From Apostichopus japonicus (lineage: Eukaryota; Echinodermata; Holothuroidea; Aspidochirotida; Stichopodidae): DNA of 64,000 nucleotides. Shown here piece by piece: positions 43,301 to 49,300 of this stretch. Where the stretch lies: contig NC_092565.1 of assembly GCF_037975245.1 (NCBI RefSeq), forward strand, positions 18,083,999 to 18,147,998. The letters are read 5' to 3'. The position numbers were made by a program, and so were the translations under genes. Below the pieces are notes generated by a model. That model ran no database searches. It had not been told where the DNA came from and was given only the letters and a program-made list of their open reading frames with translations. Numbering within the stretch: position 1 is the first letter of the stretch; the number at the start of each line of letters is the position of its first letter.

Positions 43301-46300
43301 CATGGTTTGCTTAACAGCATATGCAGAAAGAATAATCAATTCGAAAATTTGACTTAGCAATTAACATAATAGTTTAAATTCATCCCTTGTTGTACACTAT
43401 CCAATTCAGTTGTATAATAAACTAAGTGTAAGTTGTATGTATCTGCATTACATCGTGAAACCTTTAATGGTTATTATTAAATAAAACTAGGTGAATGTAT
43501 AGCTGATCGGCATCTCTTCATTCTGACACTCTACATCATTCAAGTATATGTAAATTGTTTATACTGAGAACAAAGCCCAAATACACGCTGCAAGAGCCTG
43601 TGGAACTATAGGAAATGTGCATTAAAGTTAATTTTACTTACCATAAGAACTACATCTTACACCAGCGTCCATTGAGTGGGAACAGACGTGGTCAGTCATG
43701 TAAGCACAATCAAGAAGAGAGCTTTCAAAGCCCGAGCATTGGACATCATCTAAGTGTATTACACCATTTCCTTTGGCGAAAAAAACCGAATTTAGCAATC
43801 CAAGAGACCCTTGAAAACCTAGTTGACGACAAACGACATCAGCATCACTAATGTCCCACTGATCGTCACAAACTGTGCCCCATTCACCATTCAAGAAAAT
43901 CTCAACTCTTCCCGCTGTAGCATTCCCGTCTTCAAGACGAAGTTGTCCTTCATAGTACGAATCTGAAGGAATAGTCACAAATAACATTTAGTTGACCAAA
44001 CATGAATTGTAAACCCAAACTGTACGAGTCTTTTTTAACTTTAAAGTTATAGTATTAGTTATAATAAAATAGCAATATGAACTTGCACTTAACATTTAAC
44101 GACAACTACTGTTAATGTATTAAAAGGATAATTTCATCATGAAATCAACAACTGATAGCATTTATTCTTTTTATTTATTTCACTAACCATCAAAAGAAGC
44201 ACAGCTGACGCCAGCGTCCTCGTGGTGCCCACAGTCGTGGACAGTTGTGTGAACACAATCAAGTAGAGAACTTTCAGAGCCTGAACACACAACGTCGTCT
44301 AAGTGTATCAATCCTGTTCCTTCTGAGAAGAAGGCGAAACTAAGCGCTCCAATAGCTTCGTCAAATCCCAGTTGACGACAAACTACTTCAGCATCACTAA
44401 TGTCCCAAACATCATCACAAACTGTGCCCCATTCACCATTCAAGAAAATCTCAACTCTTCCCGATGTAGCATTCCCGTCTTCAAGACGAAGTTGTCCTTC
44501 ATAGTACGAATCTGAAGGAATAGTCACAAATAACATTTAGTTAACCAAACATGAAAGGTAAACCCAAACGGTACGAGTCTTTTTTAACTTTAAAGTTATA
44601 ATATTAGTAATAATAATTTTGCAATATGAACTTGCACTTAACATTTAACGACAACGTCGTTAATGTACTAAAAGGATATTTTCATCATGAAATCACCAAC
44701 TGATAGCATTTGTTCTTTTTATTTATTTCACTAACCATCAAAATATGTACAGCTGACGCCAGCGTCCTCGTGGTGCCCACAGTCGTGGACAGTTGTGTGA
44801 ACACAATCAAGTAGATAACTTTCAGAGCCTGAACACAAAACGTCGTCTAAGTGTATCAATCCTGTTCCTTCTGAGAAGAAGGCAAAACTAAGCGCTCCAA
44901 GAGCTTCGTCGAATCCCAGTTGACGACAAACTACTTCAGCATCACTAATGTCCCAAAAATCGTCACAAACTGTGCCCCATTCACCATTCAAGAAAATCTC
45001 AACTCTTCCCGATGTAGCATTCCCGTCTTCAAGACGAAGTTGTCCTTCAAAATATTAATCGAAAGGAATAGTCACAATTTACATTTAGTTGACCAAACAT
45101 GAAAGGTAAACCCAAACGGTACGAGTCTTTTTTAACTTTAAAGTTATAATATTAGTAATTATAATATTGCAATATGAACTTGCACTTAACATTTAACGAC
45201 AACTACTGTTAATGTATTAAAAGGATATTTTCATCATGAAATCACCTACTGATAGCATTTGTTCTTTTTATTTATTTCACTAACCATCAAAATATGTACA
45301 GCTGACGCCAGCGTCCTCGTGGTGCCCACAGTCGTGGACAGTTGTGTGAGCACAATCAAGTAGAGAACTTTCAGAGCCTGAACACTCAACGTCGTCTAAG
45401 TGTATCAATCCTGTTCCTTCTGAGAAGAAGGCGAAACTAAGCGCTCCAATAGCTTCGTCAAATCCCAGTTGACGACAAACTACTTCAGCATCACTAATGT
45501 CCCAAACATCATCACAAACTGTGCCCCATTCACCATTCAAGAAAATCTCAACTCTTCCCGATGTAGCATTCCCGTCTTCAAGACGAAGTTGTCCTTCAAA
45601 ATATTAATCGAAAGGAAAAGTCACAATTTACATTTAGTTGACCAAACATGAAAGGTAAACCCAAACGGTACGAGTCTTTTTTAACTTTAAAGTTATAATA
45701 TTAGTAATAATAATATTGCAATATGAACTTGCACTTAACATTTAACGACAACTACTGTTAATGTATTAAAAGGATATTTTCATCATGAAATCACCTACTG
45801 ATAGCATTTGTTCTTTTTATTTATTTCACTAACCATCAAAATATGTACAGCTGACGCCAGCGTCCTCGTGGTGCCCACAGTCGTGGACAGTTGTGTGAGC
45901 ACAATCAAGTAGAGAACTTTCAGAGCCTGAACACTCAACGTCGTCTAAGTGTATCAATCCTGTTCCTTCTGAGAAGAAGGCGAAACTAAGCGCTCCAATA
46001 GCTCTGTCAAATCCCAGTTGACGACAAACTACTTCAGCATCACTAATGTCCCAAACATCATCACAAACTGTGCCCCATTCACCATTCAAGAAAATCTCAA
46101 CTCTTCCCGATGTAGCATTCCCGTCTTCAAGACGAAGTTGTCCTTCAAAATATTAATCGAAAGGAAAAGTCACAATTTACATTTAGTTGACCAAACATGA
46201 AAGGTAAACCCAAACGGTACGAGTCTTTTTTAACTTTAAAGTTATAATATTAGTAATAATAATTTTGCAATATGAACTTGCACTTAACATTTAACGACAA

Positions 46301-49300
46301 CTACTGTTAATGTACTAAAAGGATATTTTCATCATGAAATCACCTACTGATAGCATTTGTTCTTTTTATTTATTTCACTAACCATCAAAATATGTACAGC
46401 TGACGCCAGCGTCCTCGTGGTGCCCACAGTCGTGGACAGTTGTGTGAGCACAATCAAGTAGAGAACTTTCAGAGCCTGAACACTCAACGTCGTCTAAGTG
46501 TATCAATCCTGTTCCTTCTGAGAAGAAGGCGAAACTAAGCGCTCCAATAGCTCTGTCAAATCCCAGTTGACGACAAACTACTTCAGCATCACTAATGTCC
46601 CAAACATCATCACAAACTGTGCCCCATTCACCATTCAAGAAAATCTCAACTCTTCCCGCTGTAGCATTCCCGTCTTCAAGACGAAGTTGTCCTTCAAATT
46701 ACAAATCAAAAGGAATAGTCATGAATAACATTTAGTTGACCAAACTTGAAAATTAACCCAAACTGTTAGCGTCTTTTCTAACATGAGATTTATAGTATTA
46801 GTTATAATAAAATAGCAATATTAACTTGCACTTAACCTTTTACGACGACTACTGTACATTAAAAGTATATTTTCATCATGAAATCAACAACTGATAGAAT
46901 TAATTCTTTACATTTATTTCACTAACCATCAAAAAAAGTACAGCTGACGCCAGCGTCTTCGTTGTGCCCACAGTTGTGGACAGTTGTGTGAGCACAATCA
47001 AGTAGAGAACTTTCAGAGCCTGTACACTCAACGTCGTCTAAGTGTATCAATCCTGTTCCTTCTGAGAAGAAGGCGAAACTAAGCGCTCCAATAGCTCTGT
47101 CAAATCCCAGTTGACGACAAACTACTTCAGCATCACTAATGTCCCAAACATCATCACAAACTGTGCCCCATTCACCATTCAAGAAAATCTCAACTCTTCC
47201 CGCTGTAGCATTCCCGTCTTCAAGACGAAGTTGTCCTTCAAATTACAAATCAAAAGGAATAGTCATGAATAACATTTAGTTGACCAAACTTGAAAATTAA
47301 CCCAAACTGTTAGCGTCTTTTCTAACATGAGATTTATAGTATTAGTTATAATAAAATAGCAATATTAACTTGCACTTAACCTTTTACGACAACTACTGTT
47401 AATACATTTAAAGTATATTTTCTTCATGAAATCAACAGCTGATAGCATTTATTCTTTTTATTTATTTTACTAACCATCAAAAGAAGTACAGCTGACGCCA
47501 GCGTCCTCGTGGTGCCCACAGTTGTGGACAGTTGTGTGAGCACAATCAAGTAGAGAACTTTCAGAGCCTGTACACTCAACGTCGTCTAAGTGTATCAATC
47601 CTGTTCCTTCTGAGAAGAAGGCGAAACTAAGCGCTCCAATAGCTCTGTCAAATCCCAGTTGACGACAAACTACTTCAGCATCACTAATGTCCCAAACATC
47701 ATCACAAACTGTGCCCCATTCACCATTCAAGAAAATCTCAACTCTTCCCGCTGTAGCATTCCCGTCTTCAAGACGAAGTTGTCCTTCAAATTACAAATCA
47801 AAAGGAATAGTCATGAATAACATTTAGTTGACCAAACTTGAAAATTAACCCAAACTGTTAGCGTCTTTTCTAACATGAGATTTATAGTATTAGTTATAAT
47901 AAAATAGCAATATGAACTTGCACTTAACCTTTTACGACGACTACTGTACATTAAAAGTATATTTTCATCATGAAATCAACAACTGATAGAATTAATTCTT
48001 TACATTTATTTCACTAACCATCAAAAAAAGTACAGCTGACGCCAGCGTCTTCGTTGTGCCCACAGTCGTGGACAGTTGTGTGAGCACAATCAAGTAGAGA
48101 ACTTTCAGAGCCTGAACACTCAACGTCGTCTAAGTGTATCAATCCTGTTCCTTCTGAGAAGAAGGCGAAACTAAGCGCTCCAATAGCTCTGTCAAATCCC
48201 AGTTGACGACAAACGACTTCAGCATCACTAATGTCCCAAACATCATCACAAACTGTGCCCCATTCACCATTCAAGAAAATCTCAACTCTTCCCGCTGTAG
48301 CATTCCCGTCTTCAAGACGAAGTTGTCCTTCAAAATACGAATCTGAAAGAATAGTCAGAAATAAAATGAATTATATAGTAAAATAGCAATAGTTATTTGC
48401 TCTAAACCATGAAGTTCTCAACTGTTCCCGTTGTAGTATTTCCAGCTGTGAGACGAAGATGACCTTTGTGATATTGGTTTTATAAGAGAAATGTATTTTC
48501 GGTATTTAAAATATTAAACAATTTGGATTGGAAATCAGTTTTTGGAACATATAGATTAAACGCTAATATTGATCTACATCACCTCTTCTATATAATGCAG
48601 TCTAAGAAGCAACTATCCAATCCCGTAGTTAACTCTTTTCATCGAGTCTCTCTTATGAGCCCTTATTTATTCTTGTATCTCATCCCTTCATGTAATAGTG
48701 CTACTGCGGAAGAAGTATTGTATCTCTATCGACAATACGTGCAAACAGAACAAATCGCCGACCCTTCTTATACACAGAAACGTGAAGCAAGTAAAAGCAC
48801 CCGTCTACAAGCGTACGGTTTGACATCATGATTTCTAACTGAGCGTTCGTATGCACTTAAAGATGACGCCCACTTGCGCATATACGCAAAGTGTTTCCTT
48901 TGAAATGGATGTTCGTTTCGTGAAATTGCTTTGCCGAAATTTTAAGATGGTGACCGAAACTATTTTTGTCCGTAATACGAGTAAGGAACCGTAACAGAAC
49001 TCAGGTACGTCTTTATTTGGCTTTACCTACATGGAACTAATGTTTTGAACCAGAGAAGGGGAGTAGAAAGGAAAGGAAAAGCTTAAGAATCCTACCGGAA
49101 TTTATTTGCACTTTCATGATGAACATTTTCTGTTATGCACAAACTTTAAAATATTCCTAACAAGGGAAACAAATTCCACTGAGGCTTCACATTCATTAAG
49201 ACGTCAATTATGCACGAGTCCTACGGCCTCGTGCATCCAGCAAAAGCCATCTGAATGTTACAATTTATTTTAAAAATCATAAGAAAATAATTATAAGTTT

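Follow-up and report, generated by a model that had tools for sequence, protein, structure and literature searches.

Loss of the splice acceptor and a probable in-phase replacement in six exons of a sea cucumber SRCR array

Does a row of closely similar exons record a recent amplification, and is each of its members a complete exon? Both questions are raised by an array of SRCR exons in the sea cucumber Apostichopus japonicus (RefSeq assembly GCF_037975245.1; 671.6 Mb, 35 contigs). The window, that is, the whole stretch of 64,000 nucleotides (nt) that was analyzed, corresponds to positions 18083999-18147998 of contig NC_092565.1, here called C5. The original prediction, made from the letters of the window, described seven very recently amplified units with a complete SRCR exon in each. 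We find that the array is older and partly re-wired and not a fresh, simple amplification. Judging from the sequence, six of its exons, u2 to u7, are unusable at their original acceptors, and they probably splice at an AG slightly downstream. The array belongs to gene A, one of four tandem receptor genes (C, A, B, and D, in order of position), which are made up of a signal peptide, an SRCR array, three fixed SRCR domains, an HYR domain, and a transmembrane segment.

On the minus strand of the window, tandem SRCR exons follow one another at a spacing of 544-549 base pairs (bp). Gene A has nine such exons, u1 to u9, counted from 5' to 3'. The first eight are 324 nt long and share 93.5-99.4% pairwise identity over this length; u9 (321 nt) is 79-81% identical to them and pairs, at 91%, with the final gene B unit. 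Against the SRCR profile PF00530, the six frames scanned out of nine (u1, u2, u4, u6, u7, and u9) scored 98.8-105.2 bits, far above the curated cut-off of 26.1, and six cysteines were common to all nine translations when these were read by eye. The spacing and the scores bear out the predicted tandem array. Its exons are in phase 1 at both ends, and their lengths, including the 309 nt of the shortened version described below, are multiples of 3, in agreement with the predicted symmetry. The range given for the seven units, 44736-48342, coincides exactly with exons u7 to u1, but the array continues with the equally close u8 and with u9. Whole units u1 to u8 differ from each other at 3 to 66 positions, gaps counted, and no pair is identical. 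The closest pairs (A4-A5, A1-A3, and A5-A6) show only 3-4 differences per approximately 549 bases, and u7, with several private amino acid changes, is the most diverged of the close units. Upstream of u1, at approximately 48400-48480 on the minus strand, the degenerate start of a further SRCR exon was recognized by eye, probably a fossil unit.

The description of each unit as a complete phase-1 exon is wrong for six of the seven reported units, because their acceptor AG is gone and the canonical frame meets a stop codon at once. In place of TTCAG, the acceptor reads TTTTG in u2 to u4 and TTTCG in u5 to u7, and TAA is the second or first full codon of the canonical frame. The introns before u1, u8, and u9 and those of all eight gene B units end in CAG. 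In each of the six altered exons, the rest of the exon is open, the cysteines are kept, and the donor is GTTAGT. The next AG lies 15 nt downstream, at the Glu-Gly codons of GAAG/GACAAC (the slash marks the splice boundary). It is in phase, and its use would bypass the TAA. Loss of the old AG, an in-phase AG downstream, and a stop-free new exon were found together in all six cases. Acceptor choice follows a first-AG rule, and inspection by eye showed that in six of six exons the AG of GAAG is the first one to follow a CTAA element situated 40 nt before it, which we take to be the branch point.

Candidate acceptors were scored with a matrix derived from 79 SRCR exons out of 80 that were fetched (the other, L017, yielded no candidate). 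The exons had been hand-picked, 60 from 150 SRCR profile matches and 20 from 150 entries in a list of relatives, and their acceptors were chosen by rule, which favors pyrimidines. The GAAG site scored 3.9 in u2 to u4 and 3.0 in u5 to u7, and from 0.7 down to -2.8 in the 11 units of genes A and B that have retained the original acceptor. The canonical acceptors of gene B scored 3.8-5.9. The background of 6,436 AGs on the same strand of the region had its 99th percentile at 2.1, a value exceeded by approximately 1% of them. The distance to the first-strand Arg codon is 8 nt from the shifted site and 23 nt from the canonical one. Short starts are common here, because the predicted acceptor lies within 11 nt of this codon in 26 of the 79 exons. 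An in-phase AG at exactly 8 nt was present in 16 of the 80 sampled exons, 15 of which came from the 20 picked as relatives. With the shift, the predicted linker between domains would shrink from 9 to 4 residues.

The units were also predicted to be nearly identical in their introns, which holds only within two blocks. The introns between u1 and u4 (type X) share 95.5-99.5% identity and those between u4 and u7 (type Y) 98.2-99.1%, and the intron between u7 and u8 is 94.6-95.5% identical to type Y. Between the blocks, identity is 82-84%. The intron between u8 and u9 lies in between, at 87-88% to type X and 92-93% to type Y, and the introns of gene D are 81-88% like either type. The X-Y divergence of approximately 17% equals that between genes A and D in depth. 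Along the unit, this divergence stays at 0.0-2.7% per 25 nt in the exon core, from GAAG to nt 275. It rises to 5-9% in the 50 nt that follow, a stretch running over the end of the exon, and to 11-25% through the remaining intron; the final 24 nt, with the old exon start among them, show 19%. At that former start, the types differ at 3 of 11 nt, compared with 9 differences in 313 nt of exon core for the pair u3-u6. The step in divergence thus coincides exactly with the new boundary proposed here.

At silent sites, X and Y exons diverge by approximately 0.03 (2.0 of 68.2 sites), compared with 0.11 between genes A and D and 0.18-0.20 between A and B. Because silent exon sites differ by approximately 3% and introns by approximately 17%, exchange appears to be centered on the exons, and a single freshly copied unit does not account for the array. 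Accordingly, the exon tree groups the gene A exons in a single clade separate from gene D (support 97/95), and the introns of gene A are not a single clade in the best intron tree; a grouping of the type X introns with gene D was not rejected (p 0.47). Exchange between units can be seen directly: u3 is u2-like up to codon 89 and u1-like from codon 93, u4 lies between an X intron and a Y intron, and four-gamete site pairs lie as close as 12 nt. Of the predicted recent exchange, the exchange itself stands; a very recent amplification of whole units is not supported.

The remaining parts of gene A were read from the same strand (Table 1). The signal-peptide exon was found with a hydrophobicity script, and predicted signal-peptide exons with a phase-1 end are conserved in genes A, B, and D, the B and D copies lying upstream of those genes. 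In the C-terminal part, HYR was the only domain match in the scan, and a hydrophobic transmembrane segment was read from the sequence. Gene A is predicted to encode a type I transmembrane receptor with up to 12 SRCR domains, HYR, and a short tail. The prediction of a receptor ectodomain array is supported, and the unit number varies between the paralogous genes, with nine units in gene A, eight in B, and three full plus three broken ones in D. The frame at 39830-40483 lacks the intron between HYR and the transmembrane segment that genes B and C have, and the tail ends early relative to both neighbors, so that their distal tyrosine motifs are missing. The lost intron suggested cDNA-mediated homogenization, which was set aside because an exact cDNA copy would not remove flanking exon bases; compared with gene B by eye, the deletion took approximately 9 nt of flanking exon. 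Elsewhere in the window, positions 1405-1458 hold a short tandem repeat with a 10-base unit in 5.4 copies.

Table 1. Positions of gene A features and of the four tandem receptor genes, in window coordinates
Feature	Position	Strand	Remarks
Gene C	~26-37 kb		tandem gene
Gene A	39.8-53.9 kb		tandem gene
Gene B	57.9-77.8 kb		tandem gene
Gene D	~80-105 kb		tandem gene; extended window coordinates
Signal-peptide exon, gene A	53843..53930	-	predicted, 29 residues + G; phase-1 donor GTAGGT
u1	48019..48342	-	SRCR exon, intact; canonical acceptor TTTCAG
u2	47475..47783	-	SRCR exon; canonical acceptor lost (TTTTG), TAA 47793-47791; start set at in-phase AG of GAAG/GACAAC
u3	46927..47235	-	like u2 (TTTTG, TAA, start at GAAG/GACAAC)
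u4	46383..46691	-	like u2; mosaic exon, upstream intron X-type, downstream intron Y-type
u5	45834..46142	-	SRCR exon; canonical acceptor lost (TTTCG), first full codon TAA; start set at GAAG/GACAAC
u6	45285..45593	-	like u5 (TTTCG, TAA, start at GAAG/GACAAC)
u7	44736..45044	-	like u5; most diverged close unit
u8	44188..44511	-	SRCR exon, intact; canonical acceptor TTCAG; array member outside the range first reported
u9	43642..43962	-	SRCR exon; canonical acceptor; 79-81% to u1-u8
Frame with fixed SRCR exon, EGSTRLVDG type	42454..42966	-	likely acceptor ATTAG, phase-1 donor; splice sites by eye
Frame with fixed SRCR exon, EGQLRLIDG type	41815..42249	-	likely acceptor TTTAG/ATGAAGG, phase-1 donor; splice sites by eye
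Frame with last SRCR exon	40766..41182	-	
Frame combining HYR domain and transmembrane segment	39830..40483	-	shortened cytoplasmic tail

We consider it reasonably probable that gene A encodes such a type I receptor, that u2 to u7 splice at the in-phase GAAG/GACAAC site, and that this shift spread through the array by exchange. Nine of the SRCR domains would then come from an array with one exon per domain. In u2 to u7 the spliceosome would pick the next AG, and the six exons would still be spliced together as SRCR domains, with five residues fewer in each linker. The original boundary would have been lost once or twice, and the altered form would have been copied across the array by unequal exchange; exchange centered on exons would keep these alike while the introns kept two old forms. 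If this is true, one splice-site mutation together with unequal exchange can change interdomain spacing throughout the array of an immune-type receptor, and gene predictors tuned to the canonical acceptor would miss half of the domains or take the gene for broken. Moreover, the likeness of exons in such arrays need not date their amplification, since exons and introns give different ages here.

Several observations weigh against this explanation. In absolute terms the GAAG site is weak: among the 79 sites, whose median score is 8.9, it ranks at the 9th-11th percentile; the gene B sites are also low, at the 11th-28th percentile. Its -3 base is A, which is present in only 4 of the 79 exons. When only the upstream AG is lost, the site already scores 1.6-2.7, and in 4-15% of simulations random additional changes bring it up to the value observed, so that compensatory evolution of the site is suggestive only. 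For X versus Y exons of the array, dN/dS is 0.93, other within-array groupings give 0.43-3.6, and the variable codons comprise 12 amino acid-changing versus 5 silent ones; between genes, dN/dS is 0.37-0.60. Since the within-array counts are small and the values near neutral, dN/dS gives no proof of purifying selection on u2 to u7 or of their use, and exchange alone could keep the frames open. On the side of the trees, a single clade for the introns of gene A could not be formally rejected (p 0.26), and the exon tree does not reject the intron grouping of u1 to u3 (p 0.36). The truncated tail and the absent intron of gene A point in the same direction.

The main rival explanation is that of six dead exons, with u1 spliced in frame to u8, six SRCR domains instead of twelve, and frames that stay open only via recombination with live units. 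The AG loss and TAA in six of six exons, the dN/dS of 0.93 between the two unit types, the private changes of u7, and the absolute weakness of the GAAG site speak for such exons, and the symmetric phase would make skipping harmless. However, exchange with intact neighbors should have restored an acceptor only 15 nt away at least once, and it is restored in none of the six, although the adjacent exon has been homogenized. Donor, open frame, and cysteines are kept in every one of them, and the next AG is in phase with a score near that of gene B's normal sites. Given the near-neutral dN/dS, the modest gain in GAAG score, and the shortened tail and missing intron of gene A, we regard dead exons as somewhat unlikely but as a serious contender. 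A broader decay, in which the whole of gene A is a degenerating copy with a relaxed array and tail and nothing functional there, seems improbable. The early stop of the tail relative to B and C, the lost intron, and the clearly decayed neighbor D would agree with it, but the three fixed SRCR, HYR/transmembrane, and signal-peptide exons are open, their splice sites, as read by eye, keep phase 1, and the intron loss preserves the frame.

We see equally little chance that the array is, as originally predicted, a very recent row of complete exons with a copy number that differs between individuals: six exons are incomplete and the intron blocks lie approximately 17% apart, even if the closest unit pairs differ at so few bases and human DMBT1 arrays are described as variable (PMC4851238). 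By analogy, variation in copy number between individuals is in itself plausible. An assembly artefact, whether false duplication or collapse, is scarcely credible, since the units are not identical, the contig spans 24.5 Mb with no N in the 113 kb read, and no extra copy is among the 68 matches listed in a genome-wide DNA search. In particular, a trivial assembly duplication is unlikely because no units are identical and whole-unit matches were listed only on C5.

Along with the acceptor shift that we favor for gene A, genes C and D show what look like further boundary changes. In a different, fixed SRCR exon of gene C (window position 32279, minus strand), the acceptor AG has become GG, and GCAG/GG at the homologous Glu-Gly codons, with a score of 5.9, is the likely new site. 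Units D2 to D4 of gene D carry TTTAG/AAGGACAA beside the Glu-Gly codons after deletion of the old site (score, 5.3-5.9). Gene D is decayed (C5, approximately 18164000-18189300): it has in-frame stops and truncated units, and one SRCR exon seems, by eye, to carry an insertion. Its shift is therefore weak support and has less weight as independent functional evidence. We tentatively suggest that SRCR exons with Glu-Gly codons carry a built-in backup acceptor, and that arrays can lose the original site, fall back on the backup, and spread the shortened exon, although we would not bet on it. GAA-GGN codons at the start of the domain would hold an AG in exactly the phase needed, and a shortened exon spreading from unit to unit would re-tune the spacing of a whole row of domains at once. 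The boundaries would have changed separately in gene A (array, this AG), gene C (fixed exon, homologous AG), and gene D (a new AG, 3 nt before this position).

SRCR exons are numerous in this genome. In a genome-wide profile search, 150 of 712 candidates were scored, and all 150 exceeded the curated cut-off, which is a lower bound for the genome. A DNA search with the unit gave at least 68 matches; those listed lay on only six chromosome-sized contigs, and among them whole-unit matches were found only on C5. Contig C2 (9087900-9097899) holds a much younger SRCR array, in which the four units compared, of 1,924-1,926 bp with their introns, show 3-8 base differences per pair; further units lie at the same spacing, and an intact acceptor of identical sequence precedes each of the five exons whose starts fall in the stretch read. 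This array shows what a recent amplification looks like here, unlike that of gene A. In the mitochondrial sequence, COX1 reads well under code 9, the echinoderm code; it begins on the first bases of its contig, at whose end the 16S rRNA is located. This code and gene order point to an echinoderm, probably an echinoid or holothuroid. The 31,219-base contig C29 contains COX1 in several pieces and is probably mitochondrial or nuclear mitochondrial DNA.

In a literature search, no title or abstract opening dealt with acceptor migration in SRCR arrays, which does not prove its absence from print. Large multi-SRCR proteins have been described in a sea cucumber (PMC13228809). For the sea urchin Strongylocentrotus purpuratus, the portion of the account used here describes an SRCR superfamily with one exon per domain, tandem clusters, and a large expansion (PMC10855680), all of which resemble the present locus; the predicted acceptor migration common to six neighboring exons is a feature of gene A that this portion does not contain. 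Human DMBT1 (SALSA, gp340) likewise has tandem SRCR units, with 7 to 20 SRCR domains per molecule through allelic variation (PMC4851238). Such individual variation is a feature of DMBT1, whereas a single assembly was analyzed here. Gene A was not assigned to DMBT1: it has HYR and a transmembrane segment where DMBT1 has CUB and zona pellucida domains, its C terminus scans as HYR only, and it lacks SID-like spacers between the SRCR domains. By sequence, the best solved relative is the ectodomain of CD163 (M130), with tandem SRCR domains and, as counted on the alignment, five residues between domains 2 and 3 and between domains 3 and 4, close to the four predicted for the shifted linkers of gene A. 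The CD163 domains match the array unit very unequally (27 to 102 bits) and are thus well diverged from each other, and the four-residue linkers of gene A, unlike those of CD163, would stem from a shifted splice site. One-exon SRCR domains, tandem clusters, and arrays of variable copy number are thus known from other systems; what appears to be new at this locus is the probable migration of an acceptor through an SRCR array.

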